From NCBI GenBank assembly GCA_002304445.1, contig NEVA01000001.1:124001-188000 (forward strand): a stretch of DNA of 64,000 bases, read 5' to 3'. A program made the translations under genes and the position numbers. The notes under the pieces were generated by a model, which worked only from the letters and a program-made list of their open reading frames with translations, ran no database searches and was not told the DNA's origin. The DNA is from Opitutia bacterium Tous-C4FEB (GTDB taxonomy: Bacteria; Verrucomicrobiota; Verrucomicrobiia; Opitutales; Opitutaceae). Shown here in pieces: positions 13,960 to 64,000 of the stretch. Every line of letters begins with the position of its first letter. Within the stretch, counting starts at the first letter, position 1.

Positions 13960-15579
13960 ATGAAGCTCTTCCCGCGTCTCGCCCACCCCGTTCTCTTTTT
14001 TCTCTCGGCGGTGACGATCGCCGCTGCCACCCCCGCCTCGCGCCCCAACATCATCTTTATCTTCGCCGACGATTGGGGCTGGGGCGATCTCTCCTCGCAC
14101 GGCCATCCGTGGCTGAAGACCCCGCACCTCGACCGGCTCGCCCGCGAGGGCACGGACTTTCATCAGTTCAACGTCCTCAACCCCGTCTGCTCACCGAGCC
14201 GCACGGCCGCGATGACCGGGATGTTTCCGTCTCGCTTCGGCATCTCTCAGCACTTCGCGGCGCCCGCGCAAAATCTGGCCCGCAACATGCCCGACTGGCT
14301 CGACGTCCGCGCGCCCAGCATCGCGCGAATTTTCCAGCAAGCCGGCTACCGCACCGCGCATTTCGGCAAATGGCATCTCACCAATCGCAACACCCACGGC
14401 GCACCGGAACCCACCGCCTACGGCTTCGATGAATTCGCCATCTTCAACGGCGGCGCCGAAACCGCCTCCGCCGATCTGCACGCCACCCCCGACAACGCCG
14501 CGAAGTTTATCGCCGCCAACAAAGACCGCCCGTTCTACCTCAACGTCTGGCTCCACGAGAGCCACCTGCCCCACGTACCCACCAAGGCCTCGCTCGAAAA
14601 ATGGTCGCACCTCGACGAGCAGAAACGCGTCTACGCCGCCGTCATCACCGATGGCGACAATGCCGTCGGTCGCGTGCTCGAAGCCCTCGATTCCGCCGGA
14701 ATTGCCCAAAATACGATCGTGATCTTCTCGAGCGACAACGGTCCCGAGACCACCGCACCCGCCGCGCAGCGCGAGTCCCGCGACAACGACGCGAAGGCCG
14801 CAGGCTACGGCGGCTACTACAGCGTCGGTTCCAGCGGCGGCCTGCGCGGCGAGAAACGCAGTCTCTTTGAAGGCGGCGTGCGCGTGCCCTTCCTCGTGCG
14901 CTGGCCCGGCCGCACGCCCGCCGGCGCGATCAACCACACCACCGCCTTCACTGCCGTCGATCTCCTGCCCACGCTCTGTGCGGCCGCCGGCATTACGCTG
15001 CCATCCGACTACCGCGGCGACGGCGAAAATCTGCTCGCCGCCCTCGCCGGCCAACCCGTCAAGCGCACGCGCCCCATCTTCTGGGACTGGACCGGCAAGG
15101 CCGCCGATCCCCACTGGTGGCCGCGCCTCGCCGTGCGCGATGGCGACTGGAAACTCCTCCTCACCGCCGACGCCCAGCGCGTCGCTTTGCACCGACTCAC
15201 CACCGACCGCGCCGAAGCCGTCGACCTCGCCAAAGATCACCCCGAAATCGTCGCCCGGCTCACGCAACTCGCACTCGCGTGGAAAGCCACCCTCCCCACC
15301 ACCGTCGATCCTTCGTGCATCAGCGTGGCCGACCGCGCCGCCGCCCCCGCGCCTCTCCCCGTCCCCGCTGCACCGCTTGCGCCCGCCAAAAAAACCACGC
15401 CCGACCGCGCCGCCGCCTTCACGCGTATGGACACCAATCGCGACGGCCTCCTCACGCCCGACGAATACGTCGCCGGCCAAAAAGGGGCGGCAAACATCGA
15501 ATCGCGCTTTAAGAATTTCGACCAAAACGGCGACGGGAAACTGAACCGCGAAGAGTTCATCACCCCATCGGGAAGATAA
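13960..15579 (+). CDS. sulfatase with C-terminal EF-hand pair
   Basis: [45 protein letters not shown] motif; HFGKWHL; SSDNG; C-terminal DTNRDGLLTPDEY and DQNGDGKLNREEF. ATG 13960 chosen. Confidence 0.95.
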   Translation: MKLFPRLAHPVLFFLSAVTIAAATPASRPNIIFIFADDWGWGDLSSHGHPWLKTPHLDRLAREGTDFHQFNVLNPVCSPSRTAAMTGMFPSRFGISQHFAAPAQNLARNMPDWLDVRAPSIARIFQQAGYRTAHFGKWHLTNRNTHGAPEPTAYGFDEFAIFNGGAETASADLHATPDNAAKFIAANKDRPFYLNVWLHESHLPHVPTKASLEKWSHLDEQKRVYAAVITDGDNAVGRVLEALDSAGIAQNTIVIFSSDNGPETTAPAAQRESRDNDAKAAGYGGYYSVGSSGGLRGEKRSLFEGGVRVPFLVRWPGRTPAGAINHTTAFTAVDLLPTLCAAAGITLPSDYRGDGENLLAALAGQPVKRTRPIFWDWTGKAADPHWWPRLAVRDGDWKLLLTADAQRVALHRLTTDRAEAVDLAKDHPEIVARLTQLALAWKATLPTTVDPSCISVADRAAAPAPLPVPAAPLAPAKKTTPDRAAAFTRMDTNRDGLLTPDEYVAGQKGAANIESRFKNFDQNGDGKLNREEFITPSGR

Positions 15580-15619
15580 CCGTCCCGCCACCCGTGTTAC
15601 CGTGCCCCGCACCTTTGTC

Positions 15620-17428
15620 ATGATCTCTTCGCGCCCGGTCCGCTCCGCCCTCCTGCTCGCCCTCACCGCGCTCACCGCGACTCCCAGCCACGCCGCCACC
15701 GCTCCCGCCAAAGCCCCCGCTCAATCCGCGGAGTTCTCGATGGACCAGATGTGGGGCGCCACGACGGTCAAGGCGGACCTCTCTTCCACCGATCGCGTCG
15801 CCCTCTTCCGCGACGGCAACTACGGCATGTTTATCCACTGGGGCATCTACTCGCACCTCGGCGGTCAGTGGAAAGGCCAGACCTTTTACGGCATCGGCGA
15901 GTGGATCAAACGGCAGATGAAAATCTCCGAATCCGACTACGTGGCCGAGGCGAAAAACTTCAACCCAAGCGCCTTCGACGCCCGAGAGATCGTCCGCGTG
16001 GCCAAGGCCGCCGGCATGAAATGGATCATCATCACCTCGAAGCACCACGACGGCTTCGCGATGTTCAAGTCCGCCCACCCGTTCAACATCGTCGACGCCT
16101 CCCCGTTTGCCCGCGATCCCATGAAGGAACTCGCCGACGCGACCCGCGAGGCCGGCCTCGGTTTCGGTTTCTATTACTCGCACAACCAAGACTGGACCGC
16201 CCCCGGAGGAAACAACGGCCCCCGGCAAAACGCCGACGGCTCGGCCGCCTCGTTCGACCAATACTTCCGCGAAAAATGTTACCCGCAGGTGAAGGAAATC
16301 TGCACGAACTATGGCCCGTTGAACTACGTGTGGTTCGACACCCCCGACAATATGCCCAAAGAACACGCGGAAAAACTCGCTGCGCTCGTACGCGAGACGC
16401 AGCCCGGCGCGTTGCTCTGCAGTCGCGTCGGTTACGGCCTCGGTGACTACCTCAGCAAGGGCGACATGGAAGTCCCTCCCCGCCGGATGGAGGATCTGTG
16501 GGAGACCTGCGATACCACCAACGATTCGTGGGCCTACGCGTGGTATGACCAAAATTGGAAGGACCGGAAAGAGATCCTCCATCGTCTCGTCTCCACGGTC
16601 GGTCGCGGCGGCACCTACCTGCTCAACGTCGGCCCAGATGGCTCCGGCCGCATTCCTGCGCAGGCGACCAAGTATCTCCTCCAAGCCGGCGAGTGGCTCC
16701 AACGCTACCCGCAGGTCGTCTACTCCGCCGGTCCCTCACCGTGGGACCACGCCCAACCGTGGGGCGATATCACGACGAGCGGCCACACGCTCAACCTCGT
16801 CGTTTTCGATTGGCCGAAAAACGGCCGCCTCATGCTCCCCGGCCTGCAAACCGCCATCGCCGCCGCCGGCCTTGTCTCCGGCGGAAAACTGCTTCCCATC
16901 ACCTGGGAAAAAATCGGCACGTGGACCGAACTTCAGCTCCCGTCTGCTCCGCCCGATCGCCCCGCATCCGTGATCGCGGTCAAGTTGCACGGCGCCCCCA
17001 AGGTAGACCAAACCATCGGCCTGCATCCGAATATTCCGACCCCGCTTTTGCTCGAATTCGCAGAGGTGATCGATGCCACGAAAAAACAAATCCGCTGGAT
17101 GGAGAAATTCGGCGAATGGAAAGCCGCCAACCAGGTCAGCGACTGGAAGCCCGGTGGCCGAGCGATCTGGACCGTCGATGTCGCCGCGGCCGGCGACTAC
17201 CGCCTCGACCTCACCTACAAAGGCGAAGGTAAACTTGTCTGGCGCATCGAAACCGACGAGGGCGTGACGCTCCAAAACCAGCAAAATTCGTCGCCCATTT
17301 ATCACTCGCACCCCTTCGGCTTGCTCACCTTCAAGACCACCGGCCGCCACACCATCGCCGTTTCTCTCATCGACGGCCCGGCCGACAAAGCCAGCCTCCA
17401 AGCAATCCGCCTGAGCCCCGTCGAATGA
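15620..17428 (+). CDS. alpha-L-fucosidase, GH29 family
   Basis: NYGMFIHWGIYSHLGGQWKGQTFYGIGEWIKRQMKI; MKWIIITSKHHDGFAMFKS; FGFYYSHNQDW; YVWFDTPDNM; GRGGTYLLNVGPDGSGRIP. ATG 15620 chosen; a GTG at 15602 is the alternative. Confidence 0.94.
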   Translation: MISSRPVRSALLLALTALTATPSHAATAPAKAPAQSAEFSMDQMWGATTVKADLSSTDRVALFRDGNYGMFIHWGIYSHLGGQWKGQTFYGIGEWIKRQMKISESDYVAEAKNFNPSAFDAREIVRVAKAAGMKWIIITSKHHDGFAMFKSAHPFNIVDASPFARDPMKELADATREAGLGFGFYYSHNQDWTAPGGNNGPRQNADGSAASFDQYFREKCYPQVKEICTNYGPLNYVWFDTPDNMPKEHAEKLAALVRETQPGALLCSRVGYGLGDYLSKGDMEVPPRRMEDLWETCDTTNDSWAYAWYDQNWKDRKEILHRLVSTVGRGGTYLLNVGPDGSGRIPAQATKYLLQAGEWLQRYPQVVYSAGPSPWDHAQPWGDITTSGHTLNLVVFDWPKNGRLMLPGLQTAIAAAGLVSGGKLLPITWEKIGTWTELQLPSAPPDRPASVIAVKLHGAPKVDQTIGLHPNIPTPLLLEFAEVIDATKKQIRWMEKFGEWKAANQVSDWKPGGRAIWTVDVAAAGDYRLDLTYKGEGKLVWRIETDEGVTLQNQQNSSPIYHSHPFGLLTFKTTGRHTIAVSLIDGPADKASLQAIRLSPVE

Positions 17429-19704
17429 AATCCTTCCGAGTTCTTCTGGCCGCGCTCGCCACCACCGCTAGCTACGCGGCCGGAGCGGTCACCGACTTCG
17501 CGCCGCTGCGCGAAAAAATCGCCGGCCTCGGCACGTTGACCTCGCCCCCCGCCGTCCACCCCGCCGAGGGCTTCGCCGCCACCGGCACAATCAAACCTCT
17601 CTTCTTCGAGAGCCTGCCGTATCGGGGAAACTCCACCCGCGTTTTCGCGTGGCTCGGTCTGCCCGCCGGGCGCCCGGCAAAAGTCCCCGGTGTCGTCCTC
17701 GTGCACGGCGGCGGCGGCACGGCGTTCAAGGAATGGGTGCAGAAATGGAACGATCAGGGCTTCGCCGCGATCTCCATCGCGGTCGAAGGCCAAACCGATG
17801 AACGCATCGCCAACGCGCCGCCGGGCGCCCAATGGAAACGCCACGCCGCCGCCGGACCCGTGCGCACCGGCATCTACGGCGACTCCGCCGAGCCGCTCAC
17901 CGATCAGTGGATGTATCACGCTGTCGCCGCCACGGTTCTCGCCAACTCCTTGCTCCGCTCGTTACCCGAAGTGGACGCCACACACGTCGGCATTTGCGGC
18001 ATCTCATGGGGCGGTATCATTACCTCGACCGTCGTCGGGATCGATCCGCGTTTCGCCTTCGGCATCCCGATTTATGGCTGCGGTGCGCTCAATCGCATTC
18101 CCAACCAATACGGCCGCGCGCTCGGCGATCTCGCGCTCTATCGCGAAGTCTGGGAACCATTGATCCGCCTGCCTCGCGCCACGATGCCGCTGCTCTGGCT
18201 CACCGGTCCGCGCGATGCGCACTTCCCCCTCGACGCGCAGCAAACCAGCTACCGTACCGCCTCCGGCCCGCGCCTGGTTTCAATTCCCTTCGACATGAAG
18301 CACGGCCACCCGCCGGGTTGGAATCCGCCCGACAGCTACGCCTTCGCGAAGTCCGTCGTCGAAACCGGCCGCCCTTGGGCCCGCGAGGTGTCGCAGGAAA
18401 GCCATGACGCTACCGCCCGGGTCACCTTCGAAGTCACTCGCCAGGTAAGCGCGGCGACCCTCGTTTTCAAACGCGCGACCGACTGGGAGAAACTCCCGGC
18501 TCAACTCGAAACCGCGTCCGGTCGCGTCACCGCCACCGCGATTGTTCCCGCCGGCGCCACCGCCTACTTCTTCAACCTCAACGCCGACGGCTTAACGCTC
18601 AGCTCCGAACTCCAGACCATCAATCCTGCCGCTCCGCCTCGCGTGACCGCCCCGAACCGCGGTTTCTCTTGGGACCGCGTCCCGCTCAATCTTCATTTCG
18701 GAAAACGCAACGCCAGCCTCACCGACGACGAGATCGATTTCATCGCACGTCGCAGCGCGTTGATCGCCCTCGAGAAAAGCCACGGCGTCACCCCCCACGG
18801 CAGCACCGAGGCCGGCATCGCGGACTCCGCGCGGCGGATCACGCAGCGCAACCCGGACGCCAAAGTTCTCTTCTACCTCAACGCCTTCATCAACTGGCCC
18901 GGCTACGATGCCTTCAAAACCTACCGCCCCGAGTGGACGCTCCGCACCGCGGGCGGCGAGATCGTGACCCACCCCTCCGGCACGCCGCGCCCCGATCCCT
19001 CCAACGCCGAATTCCGCGAGTGGTGGTCCGAAGTGGTGGCCACGGCCAACCGCTCCGCCCCGCTGGGCGGCGTCTTTGTCGATGCGCTGCCGCAGGCACT
19101 TTCTCCCGGCCTCGCCAAACAGGTCGGCGATGCCAAAGCCCGCGCCATCGTCGCCGGCCTGCGCGAGATGCTCGCGCTCACGAAACGCAAACTCGGCCCC
19201 GACCGCCTTGTCCTCGCGAACGGACTGCGCACGACGGATTTTCGCGAGATCCTCGATTGGGAGGGCATCGACGGCGTGATGATCGAACACTTCGGCGCGT
19301 TCAAAACCGACTCGCCCACCGACATCAAAGCCGATCTCGAGTCCATCGCGCTCGCCGCCGCCAAAGGAAAGTTCGTCGTGATCAAGGGCTGGCCCGGTTT
19401 CAACTGGCTGGACAAAGAAATGATGCAGCGCCCCTACGCCGAACTCCTCCAACTCGCGCGCGAGCGCCTCACGTTTCCACTCGCCTGCTTCCTCGTCGCC
19501 GCGCAGCCCGGCTCGCAGTTTTGCTACTCGTGGGGCTACCGCGAAGAGCACGGGATGCTCGATGCCTACCCCGAATTCGACCGCCCGCTTGGCCCGCCCC
19601 AAGCCGACGCAAAATGGGTCGGCCTCACCGCCACCCGCGAATTCGCCCACGCCTCCGTCTGGGTCGACCTCACGACCAAGCAAGCCCGCATCGACTGGCG
19701 CTGA
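17425..19704 (+). CDS. bimodular protein: alpha/beta-hydrolase (acetyl-xylan-esterase/dienelactone-hydrolase-like) plus putative TIM-barrel glycoside hydrolase (hypothetical GH15/DUF-type)
   Basis: N-terminal half: VPGVVLVHGGGGTAFKEW..GICGISWGGIITSTVVG..GPRDAHFPLDAQQ. C-terminal half: RGFSWDRVPLNLHFGKRNASLTDDEIDFIARRSALIALEKSHG..GVFVDALPQ..GIDGVMIEHFG. 4-bp overlap (ATGA) with GH29. Confidence 0.8.
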   Translation: MKSFRVLLAALATTASYAAGAVTDFAPLREKIAGLGTLTSPPAVHPAEGFAATGTIKPLFFESLPYRGNSTRVFAWLGLPAGRPAKVPGVVLVHGGGGTAFKEWVQKWNDQGFAAISIAVEGQTDERIANAPPGAQWKRHAAAGPVRTGIYGDSAEPLTDQWMYHAVAATVLANSLLRSLPEVDATHVGICGISWGGIITSTVVGIDPRFAFGIPIYGCGALNRIPNQYGRALGDLALYREVWEPLIRLPRATMPLLWLTGPRDAHFPLDAQQTSYRTASGPRLVSIPFDMKHGHPPGWNPPDSYAFAKSVVETGRPWAREVSQESHDATARVTFEVTRQVSAATLVFKRATDWEKLPAQLETASGRVTATAIVPAGATAYFFNLNADGLTLSSELQTINPAAPPRVTAPNRGFSWDRVPLNLHFGKRNASLTDDEIDFIARRSALIALEKSHGVTPHGSTEAGIADSARRITQRNPDAKVLFYLNAFINWPGYDAFKTYRPEWTLRTAGGEIVTHPSGTPRPDPSNAEFREWWSEVVATANRSAPLGGVFVDALPQALSPGLAKQVGDAKARAIVAGLREMLALTKRKLGPDRLVLANGLRTTDFREILDWEGIDGVMIEHFGAFKTDSPTDIKADLESIALAAAKGKFVVIKGWPGFNWLDKEMMQRPYAELLQLARERLTFPLACFLVAAQPGSQFCYSWGYREEHGMLDAYPEFDRPLGPPQADAKWVGLTATREFAHASVWVDLTTKQARIDWR

Positions 19705-19726
19705 TCGCCTGTTACCGCTGTTTTCT

Positions 19727-21268
19727 ATGTTCCCCATTCGCCCACTGTTTTTTACCTTCCTCTCTCTCGTTCTCTTACTCCCCGCCGCTACGGCGGAATC
19801 ACGCCGGCCCAACATTCTCTTCATCATCGTCGACGACCAGTCGCCGTTCGACCTAAAGGCCTATAATCCGGAGTCGGCGCTGCGCTCCCCCAACCTCGAT
19901 CGCCTCGCCGCCCAGGGCATAGTGCTCGACGGTGCGTATCACATGGGTTCGTTCGTAGGCGGCGTTTGCACGCCGTCGCGCCACATGATCATGAGCGGTC
20001 GCTCCGTCTGGCACCTGCCGATCGGTCCGGGCGCCGATGCCCATTGCCCGCCCAACCTCGAACAGAGCACGATGCCCGCCGTCTTCAACCGCGCCGGTTA
20101 CGACACCATGCGCACGTGCAAGATGGGCAACAGCTACGAGGCGGCCAACAAGCTCTTCACCATCCGCAAGGACGCCACCAAGCGCGGTGGCACCGACGAG
20201 ACCGGCAGCGCCTGGCACGGCGAACAGGTTCTCGCCTATCTCCAGAACCGCGAAGCCACACAGGACCGCGATCCCTTCCTCATCTTTTTTGGCTTCTCCC
20301 ACCCGCACGACACCCGCGACGGCAAGCCCGACCTCCTCGCGAACTACGGTGCAACGAACCACACGGACAAAACCCAGCCGCCGCCCGCGCACCCGAAGCA
20401 GCCGGCGCTGCCCGAAAACTACCTGCCCGCGCATCCCTTTCAACACGGCCATCCCGGTCTCCGTGACGAGGTGGCGGTGAGCGGCGTCTGGGAGCGCCGC
20501 GACGAGCGCACGATCCGCAACGAAATCGGCCGCCAGTTCGCCTGCTCTGAAGCCATCGACACCGAGATCGGCCGCGTCCTCGCAAAGCTCGAAGCCATTG
20601 GTGAGCTCGACAACACCTACATCATCTACACCGCCGACCACGGCATGGCGATCGGCCGCCACGGCCTGCAGGGAAAACAAAATCTCTACGAGCACACCTG
20701 GCGCGTCCCCTTCATCGCCAAAGGTCCAGGCATCAAACCCGGCACGCGCGCCGCCGGCAACGCCTACCTGCTCGACGTACTCGCCACCCTTTGCGATTTC
20801 GCCGGCATCACCGCGCCCGCGAGCAACGAAGGCCTGAGTCTCCGACCCGTGCTCGAGAGCAAGAAACCCGTCGTGCGCGAGACGCTCTACGGCGTCTACA
20901 ACGGCGGCACCAAGCCCGGCATGCGCAGCGTAAAGTACGGCGACTGGAAGCTGGTGAAGTTCGACGTGATGGACGGCAGCGTGCGCGAAACCCAGCTCTT
21001 CAATCTCCGGGAAAATCCGCACGAATTTCTCGAGCAGCACCACGACCCCGCGGTCGTCGCGCTCACCGGCGTCAAACCCGCCGCGCACCAGCGCAACCTC
21101 GCCGCCGACCCGCGCCACGCCGCGAAGCTCGCTGAGCTGGAGGCCTTGCTCCTCGCCGAGATGCGCCGCCTCGACGACCCGTGGCGCCTCTGGAACCAAC
21201 CCCAAGACGGCCTGACCCCACCACGTCAGGCCCCTGCTTCCCAGGGGAAGAAAAGCGCGCCAAACTGA
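19727..21268 (+). CDS. sulfatase
   Basis: RPNILFIIVDDQSPFDLKAYNPESALRSPNLDRLAAQG; CTPSR; TADHGMAIGRHGLQGKQNLYEHTWRVPFIAKGPG. ATG 19727 follows the end of the upstream gene; C-terminal tail QGKKSAPN. Confidence 0.94.
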   Translation: MFPIRPLFFTFLSLVLLLPAATAESRRPNILFIIVDDQSPFDLKAYNPESALRSPNLDRLAAQGIVLDGAYHMGSFVGGVCTPSRHMIMSGRSVWHLPIGPGADAHCPPNLEQSTMPAVFNRAGYDTMRTCKMGNSYEAANKLFTIRKDATKRGGTDETGSAWHGEQVLAYLQNREATQDRDPFLIFFGFSHPHDTRDGKPDLLANYGATNHTDKTQPPPAHPKQPALPENYLPAHPFQHGHPGLRDEVAVSGVWERRDERTIRNEIGRQFACSEAIDTEIGRVLAKLEAIGELDNTYIIYTADHGMAIGRHGLQGKQNLYEHTWRVPFIAKGPGIKPGTRAAGNAYLLDVLATLCDFAGITAPASNEGLSLRPVLESKKPVVRETLYGVYNGGTKPGMRSVKYGDWKLVKFDVMDGSVRETQLFNLRENPHEFLEQHHDPAVVALTGVKPAAHQRNLAADPRHAAKLAELEALLLAEMRRLDDPWRLWNQPQDGLTPPRQAPASQGKKSAPN

Positions 21269-21315: not shown

Positions 21316-24300
21316 ATGCCCCTACCGCGCCCTCTTCGCTCCCTCTCTCTTTCCCTCCTGCTCTCCTTCTCAGCCGTCGCCGCGACCGTCTCCGTCGGCT
21401 CGGCGCAGACCTCCGCCAACGCCACCGGCTCGATCTCCGGTCGGGTCTTGGCTGCTGGCACGGATAGTTTCCTGAAACGCGTCCGCGTCACCGTCGAAGG
21501 TACCTCGCTCGAAACCTTCACCGATGCCGCGGGTGCCTACCGCATCGAAAGCGTTCCCGTCGGCACGGCGCGGGTAAAATTGTTCTACACCGGCATGACG
21601 CCCGTCACCGCTTCCGTCGCCGTCGCCGCCGGGCAATCCGCCCTCCACGACGTCACGCTCACAGCCGTCGGACAGAGCGACCCCACAGCGGACCGCGTGA
21701 AGCTCGCTATATTCCTCGTATCCACCTCCAAGGAAATGGAGGCCTCCGCCATCGCCATCAACGAGCAGCGTTTCGCCTCCAACCTAAAGACCGTCGTGGC
21801 CACCGATGAGTTCGGCACCGTCGCCGAAGGGCACGTGGGCGAATTTTTGAAATTCCTGCCCGGCGTCACGATGGACTACGCCGGAGGCAACGCCCGCGAG
21901 ATCTCCATCAACGGCGCGCCCGCCGACAACGTCCCCGTGACGCTCGACGGCTTCAGCCTCGCTACCGCGATCAGCGGCATTTCCCGCGCCTCCGCCGTCG
22001 ACATGGTTTCCATCAACGGCATCTCGCGCGTCGAGGTTTCCTTCTCGCCGACCCCCGACACCTCCGGCGCAGCCCTCGCAGGCTCGGTAAACATGATTCC
22101 ACGCAGCGCCTTCGAGCGCTCGCGACCCGTCTTCAACGGCAGCATCTACGCGATGATGCGCGACCATCGCAAGGAGCTCCACGCCACCCCCGGTCCGCGC
22201 GAGGATCGCCGGACCAAGGCGCCCCCAGGCTTCGACTTCTCGTGGGTGGTGCCGATAAACAAGCGCTTCGGCTTCACGCTTTCAGGTGGCCGCACGAGCC
22301 AGTTCGCTGGCCAAGACCAGGTCACCAACACGTGGCGCGGCGCCGGGACGGTCACCAATGGCACCGCCTTTCCTCACACCACACCCGATCAACCCTACCT
22401 GTCCACCTTCGCCGTGCGCGGTGGCCTCAAGGAAACCACGCGCCACTCCCTCGCCGCCACGCTCGATTTCAAATTCGCTCGCTCCGACACGCTTTCGCTC
22501 TCGGTCCAAGCGTCGCGCTTCGAGGAGGATTATCTGAGCCAGACCCTCACCTTCAACGTCGGCGGCGTGCTGCCCGGAAACTTCACGCCCTTCTCGACCC
22601 GCGGCACCACGGCCTTGGGCGATCTCGTCAGTGGCAACGCCGGCGGCTACCGCAAAAACCAAACCTACATGCCCACGCTCCGCTGGCGGCACGACGGACC
22701 GGTGTGGAAAGCCGAGGCCGGCGCCGGCTATTCTCGCGCCCGCTACAACGGCGGCGACCTCGAGCGTGGCTACTTCGCCAACACCAGCGCGCGGCGCACG
22801 GGCGTGACCGTGGCCTTCGACGATATTTTCTACCTGCGGCCCAACAGCATCACCGTGACCGATAGCGCGACCGGCACCCCGCTCGATCCGTACAGCCTCA
22901 ACCACTACGCGGTGACGGGCGCCGGCAGCGGCCAACCCGAAAACAACGACCAGCAGCGCACCCTCTTCGCCAACGTGCAGCGCGACTTCCCGTGGCGCGT
23001 GCCCCTCACCCTCAAGGCCGGGCTCGACCACCGCGAAGGCGTGCGTGATCTCCGCGCGGACGACAACCGCACCTACAGTTTCGTCGGCGGAGACGGCCGC
23101 GCCAGCACCACCCCCATCGGCAGCGATGACGCGGCGGCGCCGTTCTGGGTGCCCGAGTTGTCCGAGCGCGCCCATCCTTACGGTTTCCCGCGCATCCAAT
23201 GGGTCGGCACCAACCGTCTGCTCGACTACTATCGCGCCAACCCCACCCATCTCACTTTCAACGAAAACGCCCGCTACCGCGCCGCCGTCACCAACTCCAA
23301 GCACACCAAGGAGGCCGTCTCGTCCGCGTTCCTGCGGGGTGACGTCGCATTGGTCGAGCGCCGCCTCAAACTCGTCGGTGGCCTCCGCGCCGAGCAGACC
23401 AACATCGAGGCCGACGGTCCGCTCACCGACGCCACGCGCAACTATCAGCGCGACGCCAGCGGACGAGTGCTCCGAGCCGCCAACGGCACGCCGCTTCTCC
23501 TTTTCCCCACGACGAACGCCCTCGCCGTCTCCCAGCTCACGTTTCTTGAGCGCGGCACTCAGGTCGAAAAAGAATACCTCCGCCTCTTTCCCAGCCTCAA
23601 CGCCTCCTTCAACCTCCGGGAAAATCTCATCGTCCGTGCCGCGCGTTATTCATCCGTCGGCCGGCCCAACCTGAACCAATACGCCGGCGGCCTCACCCTC
23701 CCCGACCCCGACAGCGATGCGTCCAATCCCGCCAACCGCATCGTCGTCAACAACGCTGGCATCAAGGCGTGGAGCGCGGAGACCACCAACGCGCGCTTCG
23801 AGTATTATCTCGCGGGCGTCGGCCAGATTTCCGTCGGCGGTTTTCGCCGCGACATCACGAATTTCTTCGGCGGTACCGTCTTCGACGCGACCCCCGAGTT
23901 TCTCGCCCTCTACGGCCTCGATCCCGCGATCTACGAAAAATTTGATGTCACGACCCAGTATAATCTACCCGGCAAAGTCCGCCTCACCGGCGTCGACTTC
24001 AGCTACAAACAGGCGCTCACCGGTCTGCCGTCGTGGGCGCGCGGCGTACAGGTCTTCGCCAACGCCAGTGCGCAACGCGTGACCGGCGATGACACCGCAA
24101 CCGCCAATTTCGCCGGCTACATTCCGCGCAGCGGCAGTTGGGGGGTGAGCCTCACGCGGCCAAACTACAATCTCCGCATCAACTGGAACTATCGCGGCCG
24201 CCAGCGCCGAGGCATCGTCGCCACCGGTCCGAGCATCGAACCGGGCACCTACAATTGGGGCTCCAAGCGCCTCTACATCGACGTCTCCGCCGAATACTCG

Positions 24301-28064: not shown

Positions 28065-28193
28065 TGCGATTCAGTGCTGGAGCGATTCCGGACTCGGTCA
28101 GAACGCGGACCCACCGCGATCACCCCGAATTCGCCCTTGCCCTTCGTCACTTGGCCCTAGGCAGTGGCCGTGGCTATCTTCGCCCTGCCTCCC

Positions 28194-38817: not shown

Positions 38818-38824
38818 CGTCCCC

Positions 38825-54201: not shown

Positions 54202-54273
54202 ATCGCCTTCGACTTGCGTTCGCCCGTTCAGTCGCCTGCTGCCGACTCGTCCGCGCACCGCTACTTCCAGCCC

Positions 54274-55699: not shown

Positions 55700-56518
55700 A
55701 TGACTCGCCTCAGTCTCTCCTCCTTCCTGTCCTTCGCTCGATCCCTTTCGCTTTCTCTTTCCCTCCTTCCCTCCGTCGTCACATCCGCCGCCGCGGAAAA
55801 AATTCCCCCACTTCCCGGCGAGACGTTTTCCGTCTCCGGTCGCCCCGCTTTCCTCATCGCCGCCCCGGCCGGCCCCACCCCCACCGCGCCACGCCCGTGG
55901 GTCTGGTATGCGCCGACCCTTGAAAAATATCCGGGCAAGGAAGAGCTCTGGCTGATCTCCCAACTTCTCACCGCCGGCATTTCCATCGCCGGAATCGACG
56001 TCGGCGAATCCTTCGGGAGTCCCGCCGGCCGCGCGTTGTTCACCGCCCTCCACACCGAGCTCACGCGCACGCGCGGTTACTCCAACAAACCGCTCCTGCT
56101 CGGTCGCAGTCGCGGCGGCCTCATGTTGCTGGCGTGGGCGGCCGAGCACCCTGAAAAAGTCGGGGCCTTCGCCGGCATCTATCCCGTGGTCAACCTCACG
56201 AGTTACCCCGGGCTTGACCAAGCCGCGCCGGCCTACGCGTTGACCGCGGCCGAACTCGCTGCGCAGCTCACCGCGCACAACCCCGTCGATCGCCTCGCCT
56301 CACTCGCCGCCGCCCATATCCCGCTCTTCGCGATTCACGGCGACCGCGACACCTTGGTGCCCATCGACGCCAACTCGGCTCTTCTTAAGTCCCGCTACAC
56401 CGCGCTCGGCGGCGACATGAAACTCATCATCGCCGAGGGTCAGGGCCACAACCTCTGGCCCGGCTTCTTCGAAAACCCCGCCCTGCTCGCCTTCCTTATC
56501 GCCCACGCGCGCCCGTAA
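55700..56518 (+). CDS. secreted alpha/beta-hydrolase (esterase-like)
   Basis: Signal peptide; nucleophile-elbow-like LLLGRSRGGLMLLAWAAEHPEKVGAFAGIYPVV; acid loop IHGDRDTLVP; His in EGQGHNLW. Confidence 0.8.
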   Translation: MTRLSLSSFLSFARSLSLSLSLLPSVVTSAAAEKIPPLPGETFSVSGRPAFLIAAPAGPTPTAPRPWVWYAPTLEKYPGKEELWLISQLLTAGISIAGIDVGESFGSPAGRALFTALHTELTRTRGYSNKPLLLGRSRGGLMLLAWAAEHPEKVGAFAGIYPVVNLTSYPGLDQAAPAYALTAAELAAQLTAHNPVDRLASLAAAHIPLFAIHGDRDTLVPIDANSALLKSRYTALGGDMKLIIAEGQGHNLWPGFFENPALLAFLIAHARP

Positions 56519-56530: not shown

Positions 56531-58030
56531 ATGCACCGTCGCCCTCCTCTCGCCTTCGTTCTTTCCCTGCTTCTCTCCCTCTCCGCCTTTGCCGCCGCCA
56601 CTGTTGGGACCCCGAACATCGTCCTCCTCATGGGCGACGACCACGGCTGGGATGAAACCGGCTACAACGGCCACCCCTACTTGAAGACACCCGTACTCGA
56701 CGAGATGGCGCGCACCGGCCTCCGGCTCGACCGCTTCTACTCCGGCGGCGCGAGTTGTTCACCCACTCGGGCCACCGTCATGAACGGCCGCCACCACCAC
56801 CGCTCCGGCACCTTTGCCCCCGGCTGGTCAACGCGGCCGCAGGAAATCACGGTCGCCCAACTCCTGCGCGACGCCGGTTACGCCACCGGGCATTTCGGCA
56901 AATGGCATCTCGGCCCCGTAAAGGCCTCATCGCCGACCAACCCCGGCACCATGGGCTTCGACACGTGGCTCTCGCACGATAACTTTTTCGAACTCGATCC
57001 CTCCTTCTCCCGCAACGGCGGCCCGCCCCAAGTCATCAAGGGCGAGAGCTCCGAGATCATTATCGCCGAAGCGATTCGTCACATCGACGCCTCCCGCCGC
57101 GCCGGTAAACCGTTCTTCATCGTCGTGTGGTTCGGTTCACCGCACGAACCGTATCAAGCGCTCCCCAAAGATCTCGCGCTCTACGACGATCTCCCCGCGA
57201 CCTTTGGAAACCGTCAGGTAAAGCTCACCTCCAACACCACAGGTCGCAACACCACGCGCCTCCAGCGCGATGTGCTCCGCGAGCGTTTCGCCGAGATCAC
57301 CGCGATGGACCGTTCCATCGGCCAACTCCGCGACCATCTCGGCCGCACCGGCCTCCGCGCCAACACGTTGCTTTGGTATTGCGGCGACAACGGCACCCCC
57401 GAAGAAGCCGTCGCCACCGTCCCGTTCCGCGCCCAAAAAGGCTCCCTTTACGAGGGCGGCATTCGCGTCCCCGGCGTGATCGAGTGGCCGGAAAAAATCT
57501 CCCGTGGCCGCATCACCGAGGTCAACGCCGTCACCAGTGACATCTTGCCCACGCTCTGTGACCTCGCCGGCCGCCCGCTCCCTCAGCGCCCCCTCGACGG
57601 CCTGTCCCTCCGCGCGCTCCTCGACGGCACCATCACCGAACGCGCCGCGCCGATCTGTTTTTGGGATGATCCGATCGCGCGCCATCCCGGCGCGAAACCC
57701 TACCTCGATCCCGAGCTGCAAAAAGGCACCACCCCGCTGGTGAAACTCGACCGCGGCGGCTCTGCCACCCGCGATTTCCAAAACTTCCAGCACCGCGAAA
57801 TCCTCCCGCAAGACTTCGCCGGTCCACGCGCCGTCGTGGACAACCGCTACAAACTCGTCGTCGACGGCACCAAAGACAGCGGCCGCGAGCTCTTCGATCT
57901 CCGCGCCGATCCCGCCGAGAAAAATAACATCATCGCAGCACACCCGGCCGAAGCCGAAAAACTCGCCGCCATCCTGCAAACGTGGCAGCGCTCCGTCCTC
58001 GAAAGCCTCACTGGCGCCGACTACCGCTGA
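56531..58030 (+). CDS. sulfatase (same subfamily as the 52714-54201 gene)
   Basis: TPNIVLLMGDDHGWDETGYNGHPYLKTPVLDEMARTGLRLDRFYSGGASCSPTRATVMNGRHHHRSG; HFGKWHLG; CGDNGTPEE. Confidence 0.95.
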   Translation: MHRRPPLAFVLSLLLSLSAFAAATVGTPNIVLLMGDDHGWDETGYNGHPYLKTPVLDEMARTGLRLDRFYSGGASCSPTRATVMNGRHHHRSGTFAPGWSTRPQEITVAQLLRDAGYATGHFGKWHLGPVKASSPTNPGTMGFDTWLSHDNFFELDPSFSRNGGPPQVIKGESSEIIIAEAIRHIDASRRAGKPFFIVVWFGSPHEPYQALPKDLALYDDLPATFGNRQVKLTSNTTGRNTTRLQRDVLRERFAEITAMDRSIGQLRDHLGRTGLRANTLLWYCGDNGTPEEAVATVPFRAQKGSLYEGGIRVPGVIEWPEKISRGRITEVNAVTSDILPTLCDLAGRPLPQRPLDGLSLRALLDGTITERAAPICFWDDPIARHPGAKPYLDPELQKGTTPLVKLDRGGSATRDFQNFQHREILPQDFAGPRAVVDNRYKLVVDGTKDSGRELFDLRADPAEKNNIIAAHPAEAEKLAAILQTWQRSVLESLTGADYR

Positions 58031-58050
58031 CCACTCCCGCCGCATTTCCC

Positions 58051-59568
58051 ATGCACCTCCGCGCACTTCTCGCCCTCGCTCTTTCCCTTCTTCTCCCTCT
58101 CGCCGCGCTCTCCGCCGCTCCCGAGCGTCCCAACATCCTTTTCATCCTCACCGACGATCAGGGCTACGGCGATTTTTCCGCCCACGGAAATCCCATCCTG
58201 AAAACGCCTCACCTCGACGCTCTCCGCGCCCAAAGCGTGCGCTTCACAGATTTCCACGTCAGCCCCACCTGTTCGCCCACGCGCTCCGCCCTCTTCACCG
58301 GCCGCCATGAATTCAAAAACGGCGTCACCCACACCATCCTCGAGCGCGAACGCCTCACCCTCGATGTCACCACGCTCGCCCAGGTCCTGAAAACCGCCGG
58401 CTACACCACGGGTATTTTCGGCAAGTGGCACCTCGGCGACGAGCCCGCCTACCAACCCGGTGCCCGCGGCTTCGACGAGGTCTTCATCCACGGCGGCGGC
58501 GGCCTCGGCCAGTCTTATCCCGGCTCCTGCGGCGATGTCCCGGGCAACACTTACTTTGATCCCGTCATCCGCCACAACGGCACCTTCAAGAAAACCACCG
58601 GCTTCTGCACCGATGTCTTTTTCTCCCAAGCCACCCGCTGGATCGAATCGGCCAAAAAACCCGGCCGCCCGTTTTTTGCTTACATCGCGACCAACGCCCC
58701 GCACTCGCCCTACACGGCCCGCCCCGAGGACGCCGCGCTCTACCGGGGCAAAGTCGGCACCGGCCCCGACGCCGAATCCGTCGCCAACTTTTTCGGCATG
58801 ATCCACAACATCGACGAAAACGTCGGCCGTCTGCTCGCGTTTCTCGACGCGCAAGATCTCACCCGCGACACGCTCGTCATTTACATGAACGACAACGGCA
58901 CCGCCGCCGGGGCCAAAATCTTCAACGCCGGGATGCGCGCCCAAAAAGGCACCCCGTGGCTCGGCGGCACCCGCGCCTCCTCGTTCTGGCGCTGGCCCGG
59001 TCACTTCACGCCCGGCAACGTCGCCGCACTCACCGCGCATCTCGACTTTTTTCCCACGCTCGCCGAACTCGCCGGTGCCTCCCTCGCCCCCGCCGTGCGC
59101 GCCCAGATCGAAGGCCGCAGCCTCGTTCCGCTCCTCAAGAAAGCCTTGGCGCCTTGGCCCGACCGCACGCTCTTCACCCATCTCGGCCGCTGGCCCAAGG
59201 GCAGCGATCCCGCCCTCGCAAAATTCAAAAACTGCGCCGTGCGCGACCCGCGCTGGCACCTTGTCTCGATCACCGGCGGCACCACCCCCGCGTGGCAGCT
59301 CTTCGATCTCGCCGCCGATCCCGGCGAGCAACGCGACGTCGCCGCCGACCATCCCGCCGAGGTCCGCCGCCTGGCCGACGCCTACGACGCGTGGTGGCTC
59401 TCCGTGCAGCCCGGCCTCGTCAACGAAACCGCCGTCGGCCCGCGCCTGAATCCTTTTGCGGAAAGCTACTGGCAACAATTCGGCGGCGGCCCCACTCCCG
59501 AGCAACTCCGCCGGATGGACCCGACGCGCGAGTTAACACCGCCGGGCAAAAAATCAAAGCAGCCGTAA
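58051..59568 (+). CDS. sulfatase, close paralogue of the 24522-26048 gene
   Basis: [86 protein letters not shown]; basic tail PPGKKSKQP. Confidence 0.95.
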   Translation: MHLRALLALALSLLLPLAALSAAPERPNILFILTDDQGYGDFSAHGNPILKTPHLDALRAQSVRFTDFHVSPTCSPTRSALFTGRHEFKNGVTHTILERERLTLDVTTLAQVLKTAGYTTGIFGKWHLGDEPAYQPGARGFDEVFIHGGGGLGQSYPGSCGDVPGNTYFDPVIRHNGTFKKTTGFCTDVFFSQATRWIESAKKPGRPFFAYIATNAPHSPYTARPEDAALYRGKVGTGPDAESVANFFGMIHNIDENVGRLLAFLDAQDLTRDTLVIYMNDNGTAAGAKIFNAGMRAQKGTPWLGGTRASSFWRWPGHFTPGNVAALTAHLDFFPTLAELAGASLAPAVRAQIEGRSLVPLLKKALAPWPDRTLFTHLGRWPKGSDPALAKFKNCAVRDPRWHLVSITGGTTPAWQLFDLAADPGEQRDVAADHPAEVRRLADAYDAWWLSVQPGLVNETAVGPRLNPFAESYWQQFGGGPTPEQLRRMDPTRELTPPGKKSKQP

Positions 59569-59604
59569 CGCCGTGAGCCTCCCCCCGCCCCGACCAAGCG
59601 CCAC

Positions 59605-60963
59605 CTACCGCGCAGTGGCCGCAGGCGGTTGCCAAGGCGTCGCCCCGCCGCGCTGGATATGCCGCCGCAAGGCGACCTGCATTTCCCGGGCAACTTTTTG
59701 CTGGGAGGCGAAGACGTCGTTCTTTTCCTGAGGATCATCCTTCAAGTTGTAGAGTTCGAGGGGCGCGTAGGGGCTGTTCTGGAGCAGCTTCCAGTCGCCC
59801 CGGATGAGTGCCTCGTAGCTTTTTCCCCCATAGATCGCTCCGCCTTCGCGACGGACGAAATACAGCTCGCGCGGTTCGGCCGGCGCCGGCTCCCCGCGCA
59901 GTGCGGGCATCAAGCTCACCGCGTCGGTCGCGGCCGGTCGCGCCACGCCCGCGACTTCAAGCGCCGTGGCAAAAATATCAAAGGTCAGACCGGCGTAGTC
60001 GCTCGTCGTGCCGGGCGCGACGTGGCCCGGCCAACGCACCACAAATGGCACCCGCAATCCGCCGTCGTAGTGGCTCTGCTTCCCGTCGCGCCACGGATCG
60101 TTGTTTTGCGCGTGCGCCAGCGAGCCGCCGTTGTCGGACGTGACCACCACCAGCGTTGTCCGATCAAGTCCGGTCTCCTTCAACGCGGCGAGGACTTGGC
60201 CCAAACCGTCATCAAAGTGTTCGATCATCGCCACGCTCAGGGCGCGCTTCTCATCGATGCCGGGTTCGCGTTGCTTCACTTTCGCCAGCCACTCCGCCGG
60301 CGGCTGCATCGGAAAATGCGGAGCGTTGTAGGCCAGATAGAGAAAGAACGGCGATGGGGCCTTCGCGCGCTCCCGTAGATAATCGCGCGTCCAACCGGTG
60401 AAAATTTCCGTGGCGTGGCCGACCGGCGTAATGACCTCGCGGTCGCGGCGCATGTAGTTGCGACCCTGCCGCAGGTGAGTCGTGTAGCTGTCCATCATGT
60501 CGTCGAGGAAGCCATGGAAAAAATCGAAGCCGCGGTCGTTCGGCGTCGCGGGCGCCGTGAGGCCGAGGTTCCACTTGCCGATGAGCGCCGTGTGATAGCC
60601 CGCCGTCCGCAAGTGATCGGCGAGTGTGGGCACCGCGGGATCGAAGTAGCCCCAAGTGTTGTCGGAGTCGGTGCGGATGAGACCGGGCACGCCCACTCGG
60701 TCGGCGTAGCGGCCGCTCATCAGCGCCGCGCGCGTGGGCGAGCACACCGTGGCGTTGGCGCGCATCCGGGTGAAACGCATCCCTTCGGTGGCGAGCCGAT
60801 CGAGGTGGGGCGTGCGCACGTCGGCCCCGGCCCGGTAGGCGGAGACATCACCGATGCCGAGATCATCGGTGAGAATCACCAAAACATTGGGTCGAGACGC
60901 TTGAGTCGCGGCCAGCGCACCGCCGGAGACAGCGAGGATGAAACCGAGGAGGCGAAGCAGCAT
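59605..60963 (-). CDS. sulfatase
   Basis: RPNVLVILTDDLGIGDVSAYRAGADVRTPHLDRLATEGMRFTRMRANATVCSPTRAALMSGRYADRVG; IGKWNLG; TSDNGGS. Confidence 0.95.
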   Translation of the reverse strand: MLLRLLGFILAVSGGALAATQASRPNVLVILTDDLGIGDVSAYRAGADVRTPHLDRLATEGMRFTRMRANATVCSPTRAALMSGRYADRVGVPGLIRTDSDNTWGYFDPAVPTLADHLRTAGYHTALIGKWNLGLTAPATPNDRGFDFFHGFLDDMMDSYTTHLRQGRNYMRRDREVITPVGHATEIFTGWTRDYLRERAKAPSPFFLYLAYNAPHFPMQPPAEWLAKVKQREPGIDEKRALSVAMIEHFDDGLGQVLAALKETGLDRTTLVVVTSDNGGSLAHAQNNDPWRDGKQSHYDGGLRVPFVVRWPGHVAPGTTSDYAGLTFDIFATALEVAGVARPAATDAVSLMPALRGEPAPAEPRELYFVRREGGAIYGGKSYEALIRGDWKLLQNSPYAPLELYNLKDDPQEKNDVFASQQKVAREMQVALRRHIQRGGATPWQPPAATAR

Positions 60964-60990
60964 GAGGAAGGAAGACCGCGCTTCAGAAAA

Positions 60991-62442
60991 CTAGTCACGA
61001 CTGAAACCTTGGGCACGGTGCAGGCGCAGCGTCGCCGCCAGCCGGGCCGCGATTTCGGGGTGCGCGGCGGTGACATCGTTTATCTCGGCGGGGTCATCGA
61101 CGAGATTCACGAGGCGGGGCCGGAATTGGTCGGCTTTCGGACCCGTGGCGGCGGGTGCTTTCTTTCCCTGAGGAGCAAGCGGGACGCCCTCGATCCATTT
61201 CCACGGACCGCTGCGGATGGCATACACGCCGTTCGCGCTTTGCAGAATCAGGTCGCGGCGGAGCGGTTGGGCGGACGATTGGCCGAGAAACGCTGGGAGC
61301 ACGTTGACGCTGTCGGGCCCAGTGGTGGTGCGGTCGAGCTGCGTTTCACCCACGACCGCGGTGATCGTCGCAAAAACATCCACGACGCCGATCATCTCGT
61401 TGCTCGTGGTCGCCGCCGGAACCCGGCCGGGCCAGCGCACGAGGAAGGGCACCTTGAAGCCCCCTTCCCAGATGTCGTGTTTGCCGCCACGCAAGGCGCC
61501 GTTGATTTTCAAACCGGCCTGCATCGCGATCTTGTTGGTTCCGGTTTTGCCACCGGGGTTGACGACGCCGCCGTTGTCGCTGGTGAAGATGATCAACGTG
61601 TTTTCAAGCGCGTTTTGTTTTTCGAGCGCGGCCAAGATTCGCCCGACGCTGCGATCCAAGTCGTGGATAAAATCGCCGTACGGTCCGGCCTTGCTGGTGC
61701 CTTGGGTCTCGACGGAGGGCGTGACCAGCTCGTGCACGGCGACCGGGGCAAAATAGAGCAAAAACGGTGCGGGCTTGCCGGCCCGTTGCACGAGCCAGTC
61801 AACCGCCCGCTGGGTAAGATCGCCCATCGTCTTCGGATCGTCACGCTCGGGCGCATCGAGGCCGAGCTTGCCGGGCACGGGCGTGAGCTTCGCCGAGCGC
61901 ATACCGAAGACGCGGTGATTCTCAACAAAGACCCGGGTGATGTCGTTGTGGTTTTGCGGGACCGCGAACTGGTAATCGAAGCCGAGTTCGAGCGGGCCGG
62001 GTTTGAGTTCCTTGGTGTAATCGACGCGCCGCTCGGTGCCGTAGCCGAGATGCCATTTACCGACGAAGCCGGTGGCGTAGCCGTGCTTCTTCAGAAGCGA
62101 GGCGATCGTGGGGCGCGTGGTCTCGATGAGGAGCGGGTCGAGGGTGTTGGCGACGCCACCGTGATTGAGCGACGTGCGCCAACAGTAGCGACCGGTCAGA
62201 AGCGCATAACGCGTCGGTGTGCAGACGGAGGACGGCGTGTAGGCTTCGGTGAAGCGCCGGCCCTCGCGCGCGAGCCGGTCAAGGTGAGGCGTGCGAATGA
62301 GCGCGGAGTCGGCGCCGTAGGCACCGAGACTGCCGTAGCCATAGTCATCGGCGAGGATCACGACGATGTTGGGCGCGGGCGGAGCGGCCATCAGGCCGAG
62401 GGCGAAGCAAACAAGGGAGAACGCGGCTAAATTTCGAATCAT
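60991..62442 (-). CDS. sulfatase
   Basis: [89 protein letters not shown]. Confidence 0.95.
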   Translation of the reverse strand: MIRNLAAFSLVCFALGLMAAPPAPNIVVILADDYGYGSLGAYGADSALIRTPHLDRLAREGRRFTEAYTPSSVCTPTRYALLTGRYCWRTSLNHGGVANTLDPLLIETTRPTIASLLKKHGYATGFVGKWHLGYGTERRVDYTKELKPGPLELGFDYQFAVPQNHNDITRVFVENHRVFGMRSAKLTPVPGKLGLDAPERDDPKTMGDLTQRAVDWLVQRAGKPAPFLLYFAPVAVHELVTPSVETQGTSKAGPYGDFIHDLDRSVGRILAALEKQNALENTLIIFTSDNGGVVNPGGKTGTNKIAMQAGLKINGALRGGKHDIWEGGFKVPFLVRWPGRVPAATTSNEMIGVVDVFATITAVVGETQLDRTTTGPDSVNVLPAFLGQSSAQPLRRDLILQSANGVYAIRSGPWKWIEGVPLAPQGKKAPAATGPKADQFRPRLVNLVDDPAEINDVTAAHPEIAARLAATLRLHRAQGFSRD

Positions 62443-63737
62443 GGTCGGATGGGAAGCGGGAACGGCAGTTCATCGCCGGCAACGGCGTGTTCGCCGCGGA
62501 TAACCTTCCCCGCGAAGCTGGTCAGCCGCAGGTAGTGGTCGCTGGGCAGTCCCTCGTAGGTGACGAATTGCACGCCAGGGCCGGGACCGACGGGCGGGGC
62601 GTTCGTCACCTTGAAAACCGCGGTGGCTTCATCGACTTCGTCAAACATCGCCACGTAGAGCATGTCGGCGCCCGCGCGTTTCGCGGCGGTGACCTGCGAC
62701 CAAAAAAAGCGGCCTTGGAGACGAGGAATATCGTTGAGCGGCGCCCCGGGCTTCATGTTGTGCCAACTGAAACCGGGGAAAGCGACGGGCAGAAAATCGA
62801 TCCGACGCTCACGGCACCACGCGATGTCCGGTTGCCAATAGGTCGTGGCGTGCGTCGCGGCAGTCTCGGGCGTGCGGTAGCGGCCGGGCGTCCACGGGGA
62901 AATCACGTCGGCGAGTTGGACCAGTTCGAGCAGCACGGGCTCGGGGACACTGTCGCGGGTTTGCGTGCGCCAGCCACTCGGCACGCCGAGCATGATCGCG
63001 AGTCCCCCGCTCTCTTCGTCGTTTTTCAGGAAGGTGATAATCTTGCGCCAGTCCTCGAGCGACGGCCGGGGTTTATCATCGGATTTGAACCCGCAGCCCC
63101 AGAGCGCGAGGAGCGGTTTGCCCCGATGACGCAAGTAGGCGGGGTCGCTCGTAAGCCGGGTGTCACGGAGCAGTTTCTTCCAATCGTCGATCAGCACGTC
63201 GGCCTGCCCGGGGGCGAGGCTGCTCAGATCATACATGAGCGCGTAAACCCGGCCGTGTTCGCGGGCGCCGGCGCGGACATTTTCCAGCACGGCATTATTG
63301 GCGGCGAGGGAATTGCCGCGCTTAAGGGAGTTGATGAAACGCTGGAGGAATACGCCGTCGATGCCGTGTTCTTCCATCCACGCGAAGTGGCGCACCACCG
63401 TAGGCCGGAGATAGGAGCTGAACACTTCGGCGCGCGTGCCGTCGGCGTGCACGAAGCCGGTCGGAAAACGCTCGGCCGCGGGAAACTCCGAAAGATCCGG
63501 CCACATATCGACGCGGACATTTCCTGGCGCCGGCATCACGTTGCCGCGGGTCCAGTGATTATAGCCGCGTTTGGCGCCGTCACCCTCGGCGTTGAACCAA
63601 CCTTGATAGCCGACCATCACTTTGCCGGTGAGGGTGGAGGAATTGACGGGCAACGTCGGCGGTCCCACGCAGCTCGCGAGCAGGACGGCGACGAGCAGGC
63701 CGGCAGCGACTGACGTTAACTTTCGGATGAGAGTCAT
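62439..63737 (-). CDS. GH71/99-like glycoside hydrolase lipoprotein
   Basis: ATG 63737: MTLIRKLTSVAAGLLVAVLLASC (lipobox); KVMVGYQGWFNAEGDGAKRGYNHW; FAWMEEHGIDGVFLQRF; VYALMYDLSS; AGADMLYVAMFDEVDEATAVFK. 4-bp overlap with the downstream sulfatase. Confidence 0.82.
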   Translation of the reverse strand: MTLIRKLTSVAAGLLVAVLLASCVGPPTLPVNSSTLTGKVMVGYQGWFNAEGDGAKRGYNHWTRGNVMPAPGNVRVDMWPDLSEFPAAERFPTGFVHADGTRAEVFSSYLRPTVVRHFAWMEEHGIDGVFLQRFINSLKRGNSLAANNAVLENVRAGAREHGRVYALMYDLSSLAPGQADVLIDDWKKLLRDTRLTSDPAYLRHRGKPLLALWGCGFKSDDKPRPSLEDWRKIITFLKNDEESGGLAIMLGVPSGWRTQTRDSVPEPVLLELVQLADVISPWTPGRYRTPETAATHATTYWQPDIAWCRERRIDFLPVAFPGFSWHNMKPGAPLNDIPRLQGRFFWSQVTAAKRAGADMLYVAMFDEVDEATAVFKVTNAPPVGPGPGVQFVTYEGLPSDHYLRLTSFAGKVIRGEHAVAGDELPFPLPIRP

Positions 63738-63769
63738 AGCTGGAGAAGGATTATGTGGGAAAACGCGGT

Positions 63770-63793
63770 TCACGGCGACTTCGGTCGCCGTGA
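63770..63793 (-). terminator. perfect 10-bp-stem hairpin overlapping a sulfatase stop codon
   Basis: TCACGGCGAC-TTCG-GTCGCCGTGA; on the minus strand followed by ACCGCGTTTTCCC. Confidence 0.45.
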
Positions 63794-64000
63794 CTCCGAC
63801 GATGCCTTGATAAACTCGGCGGAAAGCGCGCGCAGACGAGCCACGATTTCGGGGTGGGCGCCGGCCACGTCGTGTTGCTCGCCCGGATCGGCTTGGAGGT
63901 CGAAGAGCGCGCCGGCACGCAGCGGATCGCCGGTATTGAGGCCGGGATATTGACTGGGGTGCGCTTGCCCGACCGGGGCGAGGATCGTGACGCCATCGGG
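63770..64000 (-). CDS. sulfatase, C-terminal fragment (5' end beyond the right edge)
   Basis: Minus-strand frame open to the edge: ..[56 protein letters not shown]. The LFDLxxDPxE..[12 protein letters not shown] pattern matches the sulfatase C-termini here. Not in the ORF track because its start is off-window. Confidence 0.8.

Follow-up and report, generated by a model that had tools for sequence, protein, structure and literature searches.

An esterase-fused GH168 domain and a GH29 fucosidase within a 30-sulfatase array of an Opitutaceae genome: a probable utilisation locus for sulfated fucose polysaccharide

Introduction

Sulfated fucans are regarded as a marine, slowly degraded carbon source. 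Here we describe a locus in Opitutia bacterium Tous-C4FEB (Verrucomicrobiota, Opitutaceae), analysed in a 64,000-nucleotide stretch of DNA, referred to as the window (contig C1:124001-188000; the genome is 3.76 Mb in 39 contigs and 96% complete). The locus combines an α-L-fucosidase of family GH29, a predicted GH168 endo-fucanase domain, and a long array of sulfatases, and its gene content suggests that it is probably an Opitutaceae polysaccharide-utilisation locus for a sulfated α-L-fucose polysaccharide.

In the fucoidan clusters of the marine Bacteroidota Muricauda eckloniae and Wenyingzhuangia fucanilytica, GH168 and fucosidases are likewise encoded together with several sulfatases (PMC12210190, PMC10778895). 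These clusters contain further fucanases, and the Muricauda locus comprises approximately 25 proteins in all (PMC12210190, PMC10778895), while the locus described here has 30 sulfatases with one GH168 and one GH29, and its GH168 is fused to an esterase-like domain. Within Verrucomicrobiota, Lentimonas, Ca. Fucivorax, and marine Akkermansiaceae also carry GH29 near many diverse sulfatases, and use of fucose-containing sulfated polysaccharides (FCSPs) has been proposed for them (PMC8857213, PMC13174399). In contrast to this genome, in which no shell domain was found, they carry bacterial microcompartments (BMCs), and the algal-FCSP enzymes of Akkermansiaceae, including GH168, are confined to macroalgae-associated genomes, whereas our locus belongs to Opitutaceae with mainly lake or pond relatives (PMC8857213, PMC13174399).

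The freshwater Verrucomicrobia metagenome-assembled genomes (MAGs) of He et al. 2017 are similarly rich in pfam00884 and encode GH29 and GH95; the accessible part of that report describes TonB-receptor CUT loci, those for fucose-containing polymers included, and seven MAGs with BMCs, but mentions no endo-fucanase or comparably large sulfatase array (PMC5615132). Pontiella desulfatans and P. sulfatireligans, also Verrucomicrobiota, have extreme sulfatase numbers and grow on fucoidan; since these marine anaerobes hold 480-521 sulfatases per genome, the total of approximately 80 found here is no record (PMC7356697). A literature search found no paper on this locus, which does not prove that none exists. 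What appears to be new is that one esterase-fused GH168, one GH29, and approximately 30 sulfatases in a 76-kb array occur together in a lake-associated lineage, with no BMC shell domain found.

Results

An esterase-GH168 fusion adjoins a GH29 fucosidase

GH168, GH29, and the sulfatases lie in one tandem gene run. The gene at 17425-19704 encodes an AXE1-like esterase (approximately residues 1-400) fused to a GHL15/GH168 domain (approximately residues 413-759; Pfam GHL15, E = 7.8e-30, and AXE1). GHL15 corresponds to GH168 because PDB 9nhf, labelled as a GHL15 protein, is MeGH168 (PMC12210190). The domain is 43.5% identical to 9nhf (E = 2e-92) and matches Fun168A (PDB 8ya6, E = 1.3e-39; also 8ya7). 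Fun168A is an endo-1,3-fucanase, and the catalytic residues of MeGH168 are Asp167 and Glu237 (PMC12210190). A nucleophile Asp and an acid/base Glu align with these positions in 35 of 35 sequences, and the residues reported as conserved in distant GH168 homologs (E-K, Y, N, D, N, E) are also kept. A preliminary description of this DNA had counted two esterase-like hydrolases in the locus; one is indeed AXE1-like, but the C-terminal half of its product is GH168. The same description had advised searching for GH168 and GH95 outside the window. GH168 sits inside it, while two GH95 genes are located elsewhere in the genome.

Directly upstream, and overlapping the fusion gene by 4 bp, is the GH29 α-L-fucosidase (PF01120, E = 6.9e-74, 249.8 bits; PDB 9rzy, E = 9e-229). 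The genome holds no other full-length PF01120 match, and GH168 is likewise present in a single copy. Since GH168 and GH29 are both present, a sulfated fucan is the best reading of the target.

GH168 exceeded the cut-off in 6 of 61 family genomes, two of them from this genus, and the fusion protein or part of it occurs in several congeners. Among the loci compared, the one-ORF fusion is confined to L001-L005, the esterase and GH168 being separate genes elsewhere. Six Planctomycetota loci (L014, L017, L020, L025, L027, and L051) contain a GH168 domain that shares 77-83% identity with this one despite the phylum boundary; most of them have few sulfatases close by, or different ones, and there is little else in common. 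Planctomycetota that hold this GH168 include Rhodopirellula and Stieleria, which are marine. Horizontal transfer of GH168 between Planctomycetota and Verrucomicrobiota is possible, although the tree is weakly supported. A plasmid origin was considered and set aside, as a plasmid collection yielded no GH168 match.

The sulfatase array extends beyond the window

We found 22 complete PF00884 sulfatase ORFs between 13900 and 62442 (E = 1e-34 to 1e-62), all 22 scoring 119-211 bits against a cut-off of 25. The final approximately 230 bases of the window encode the C-terminus of another, S23, whose complete gene (C1:187770-189182, reverse strand) is split only by the window edge. The earlier count of 22 complete and one truncated sulfatase is therefore confirmed. 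The approximately 50-kb locus proposed at that time is a real run of sulfatases, but it is not confined to the window: the array continues 25.6 kb further, to C1:213624, with seven more sulfatases beyond S23, for a total of 30 sulfatases among 49 genes in approximately 76 kb. It is dense but not purely sulfatase, as genes for a malate:quinone oxidoreductase (Mqo), an ABC transporter, and a YhcG-type nuclease interrupt it.

One additional sulfatase lies upstream of the array (C1:117724-119259), and a second sulfatase group begins near C1:352000. A genome-wide search listed 85 PF00884 matches; since some are fragments of single genes, the genome contains approximately 80 sulfatases. Chance clustering is excluded by a hypergeometric probability of approximately 1e-38 (30 sulfatases among 49 genes versus approximately 82 in the genome, with approximately 3400 genes assumed). 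At E ≤ 1e-30 this genome has 75 PF00884 matches and G008, a relative of approximately 90% identity used for ortholog, dN/dS, and collinearity comparisons, has 78, while eleven congeners, several of them less complete, have 1-44. The sulfatase number is lineage-specific.

Genes on the same strand are separated by a median gap of 22 bp, and this tight co-directional spacing is consistent with, but no proof of, long co-transcription. Composition does not support a recent acquisition of the entire array from a foreign source, as GC content and third-position GC agree with those of the flanks. Pairs of PSCyt1-PSCyt2-PSD1 and DUF1501 genes adjoin the sulfatase upstream of the locus (L055:8897-13500) and also occur in the second sulfatase group (L065:7398-11696); such neighbourhoods with sulfatases are known from freshwater Verrucomicrobia, according to the accessible part of He et al. 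(PMC5615132).

The features of the window are listed below. A home-made hexamer ORF caller supplied the gene calls, and start positions are approximate; S01 to S22 are PF00884 sulfatases.

7794-8471 (-): LuxR-type response regulator (RR; Pfam Response_reg and GerE), divergent from TBDT_A
8468-10435 (-): HisKA_3 sensor kinase (HK); N-terminal F5/8-type C-like match below cut-off
10670-13879 (+): TonB-dependent receptor A (TBDT_A; Pfam Plug)
13900-15579, likely start 13963 (+): sulfatase S01, core (PF00884, E = 3.7e-53); C-terminal EF-hand motif
15602-17428 (+): GH29 α-L-fucosidase (PF01120)
17425-19704 (+): AXE1-like esterase with predicted GHL15/GH168 endo-fucanase domain (EST/GH168; Pfam, PDB)
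19727-21268 (+): sulfatase S02, core
21316-24459 (+): TonB-dependent receptor B (TBDT_B); N-terminal CarboxypepD_reg, TIGR01782 below cut-off
24522-26048 (+): sulfatase S03, distantly S1_19-like
26095-27975 (+): sulfatase S04
28164-29690 (+): Mqo, interrupting
29824-31737 (+): sulfatase S05, C-terminal HEAT repeats
31734-33263 (+): sulfatase S06
33260-34744 (+): sulfatase S07, S1_16-like (PDB)
34775-36340 (+): sulfatase S08
36483-37832 (+): sulfatase S09
37978-40388 (+): amino-acid-type ABC transporter (binding protein, permease, ATPase), interrupting
40562-42391 (+): sulfatase S10
42437-43627 (+): YhcG/DUF1016 PDDEXK nuclease, interrupting
43624-45030 (+): sulfatase S11
45111-46619 (+): sulfatase S12, S1_15-like (PDB)
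46649-48142 (+): sulfatase S13
48213-49709 (+): sulfatase S14, Sulfatase_C type
49727-51160 (+): sulfatase S15, atypical CRPSL
51173-52717 (+): sulfatase S16
52714-54201 (+): sulfatase S17
54214-55680 (+): sulfatase S18
55700-56518 (+): Peptidase_S9-like alpha/beta hydrolase
56531-58030 (+): sulfatase S19
58051-59568 (+): sulfatase S20
59605-60963 (-): sulfatase S21
60991-62442 (-): sulfatase S22
62439-63737 (-): GH99-like protein, sub-threshold (Glyco_hydro_99, 25.6 bits)
63770-64000 (-): sulfatase S23, C-terminus only; the gene continues to C1:189182

The protein at 62439-63737, previously described as a GH71/99-like enzyme, has a sub-threshold assignment, its PF16317 score being under the curated cut-off of 33 bits. 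Its G008 ortholog is 93% identical (dN/dS 0.076), and a single-sequence structure prediction was uninformative (pLDDT 39). A tRNA-Lys call within S15 (50999-51087, reverse strand) was rejected as spurious: it is absent from the corresponding sequence of the relative and overlaps a conserved gene. Among the annotated genes of the window array there were no lyases, carrageenases, or ulvan enzymes.

The sulfatases are mutually diverged and under purifying selection

We aligned the 30 array sulfatases with the upstream one. The cysteine converted to formylglycine (FGly), the catalytic lysine, and, from the D-N/H pair, the Asp that binds the metal are kept in 31 of 31 sequences and the FGly arginine in 30, in agreement with the motif-based sulfatase calls made previously. 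The exception, S15, has CRPSL in place of CxP/AxR; its G008 ortholog does too, and S15 is under purifying selection. The genome encodes an FGly-generating enzyme (FGE; PF03781, C6:91553, E = 2e-84) with the canonical aerobic motif SYLCHASYCNRYR. Crude inspection revealed N-terminal hydrophobic stretches on the sulfatases, which suggests that they are exported.

Median pairwise identity among the sulfatases is 28.6%, with just two pairs above 50% (S03/S20 being the closest at 66%), and their tree has many deep lineages, in which S18 groups with S07 and S19 with S17. These values reject the idea that the array arose by recent duplication and bear out the earlier view of diversity rather than recent copies. 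Full-length orthologs of 21 of the 22 window sulfatases are present in G008, and dN/dS ranges from 0.08 to 0.24 for every sulfatase shared with it, in and beyond the window (0.165 for S01), which rejects pseudogene decay. Judged by sequence, the sulfatases look functional and mutually diverged.

As a proxy for subfamily we used the nearest PDB structures of seven sulfatases (S01, S03, S07, S08, S12, S14, and S17), taking S1_15, S1_16, S1_17, S1_22, and S1_25 as the fucan-linked SulfAtlas subfamilies. S07 is S1_16-like (PDB 9fo1, 'k-carrageenan sulfatase S1_16', E = 1e-115) and S12 is S1_15-like (PDB 9bas, 'S1_15A sulfatase', E = 1.3e-71). S03 is distantly S1_19-like, S08 is distant from its top match 6hhm and from iduronate-2-sulfatase, which came next, S14 is distant from its nearest relatives, GALNS and ARSA, and no close solved relative was found for S01 or S17. 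Nine sulfatases tested against NCBIfam gave no sulfatase equivalog above cut-off. Since the solved neighbours differ in this way, many different sulfatase specificities are likely.

A conserved core and a variable array

The core of the locus consists of RR, HK, and TBDT_A, followed by S01-GH29-EST/GH168-S02-TBDT_B-S03/S04, and is found complete or partial in many Opitutaceae loci. RR and HK stand beside the module in L003, L008, L012, L031, and L033, TBDT_A is conserved upstream of S01/GH29 in relatives, and TBDT_B is 97% identical in G008. From S05 on the locus is variable. The small core is what is conserved, and we propose that the other sulfatases form a variable array which widens the sulfation patterns that can be unlocked.

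G008 contains an additional five sulfatases between S14 and S15. Its S20 is cut to a 52-residue C-terminal remnant, most of its place being occupied by a restriction-modification (RM)-type island (L076-L080, reverse-complement 58945-67307) with genes for a ResIII/DUF3427 helicase, an AAA protein, a PDDEXK nuclease, and a C5 methylase. Neither Mqo nor the ABC transporter is intact in G008: at most a short remnant of Mqo lies between S04 and S05, and GSDH/epimerase genes stand at the site of the transporter, of which a remnant persists. A relative of Mqo (81%) lies near GH29/esterase in another species (L030). The YhcG/DUF1016 nuclease is present in both species with 88% identity and is more diverged than most of its neighbours.

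Discussion

Gene families, catalytic residues, co-directional spacing, core conservation, and purifying selection on the shared sulfatases are observed directly. A pathway can be proposed in which the HisKA_3/LuxR two-component pair beside the first receptor would sense the glycan or its products. The esterase-GH168 fusion, predicted to be secreted, would strip acyl groups and cut the fucan backbone internally, and the two TonB-dependent receptors would bring the oligomers into the periplasm. There, approximately 30 FGly sulfatases bearing putative signal peptides, activated by the FGE, may desulfate different positions or contexts, and the GH29 exo-fucosidase would release fucose, perhaps aided by the two GH95 enzymes.

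Several observations weigh against a sulfated-fucan locus. Some GH168 enzymes were inactive on all fucoidans and fucans tested, and other sugars have been proposed as their substrates (PMC10778895); because such members exist, we infer the sulfated-fucan target rather than observe it. Clear subfamily neighbours were found for just two of the seven sulfatases compared (S1_16 and S1_15), and among the solved relatives of S07 and S12 are a carrageenan sulfatase and enzymes whose names refer to GalNAc. Accessory sulfatases differ between close relatives, and therefore not all of them need serve one polymer. Lastly, no BMC shell domain (PF00936), as would be expected for the handling of lactaldehyde, was found in this 96% complete genome, in which a control search was positive; in the aquatic Verrucomicrobiota described so far, BMCs go together with fucose use (PMC8857213, PMC13174399).

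We considered whether the core alone targets fucan while the remaining sulfatases, for other sulfated glycans, were gathered in a hot spot. This would explain why nothing but the core recurs in distant relatives, where S05-S30 are mostly absent or patchy, why the nearest solved relatives vary among members (S1_16, S1_15, S1_19-like, ARSA/GALNS-like), and why G008 has five additional sulfatases and an RM island where most of S20 would be. However, the G008 orthologs are collinear and co-directional with 87-97% identity, and the window array has no other clear polysaccharide-cleaving enzyme; we regard such a multi-substrate island as possible but rather unlikely. The array could instead serve a different polymer, for example a sulfated galactan or rhamnan with fucose side chains on which GH168 and GH29 act, a view favored by the inactive GH168 members and by the kappa-carrageenan and S1_15 neighbours of S07 and S12. 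It seems improbable, given that GH168 keeps its catalytic residues and those conserved in distant homologs, that GH29 adjoins it, and that, apart from the weak GH99-like protein, the window array contains no enzyme to cut such a backbone. Very unlikely, in our opinion, is that the sulfatases mainly scavenge sulfate while the ABC transporter imports sulfur amino acids. The inserted transporter does come from an amino-acid family with cystine systems among its members, but its best matches are far under every equivalog cut-off and just a remnant of it is left in G008; moreover, a set of thirty sulfatases accompanied by TonB receptors, GH29, and GH168 is better explained by carbon use. A sulfated-fucan utilisation locus remains the probable explanation. 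The dedicated fucan pathway suggested by the preliminary description is supported as far as multi-specificity sulfatases, GH29, and GH168 are concerned, but a single pathway is unproven since just the core is conserved.

The marine, Lentimonas-like setting suggested at first is not supported: the named relatives are Opitutaceae MAGs that seem to come mostly from lakes or ponds (Baikal and pond are named in titles, and most of the remaining sample codes suggest lakes), and the shell domain typical of a BMC was not found. The genome does contain a fucose-isomerase-type gene (PF02952). As a tentative and rather speculative extension, there may be a widespread freshwater sulfated-fucan-like polymer, probably from phytoplankton or cyanobacteria, that a lineage of Opitutaceae degrades by a conserved esterase-endo-fucanase core, a rapidly evolving 30-sulfatase array, and microcompartment-free fucose catabolism.

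With its mutually diverged sulfatases, only a few of them similar to solved enzymes, the locus is a compact natural library that would be useful for mapping specificity. Comparison of the two species illustrates how such an array changes, with a small core that stays stable and a sulfatase periphery that does not. The presence, in a lineage living mainly in lakes, of a predicted endo-fucanase and exo-fucosidase with approximately 30 sulfatases maintained by selection implies that sulfated fucose polymers, or close analogues, occur there.

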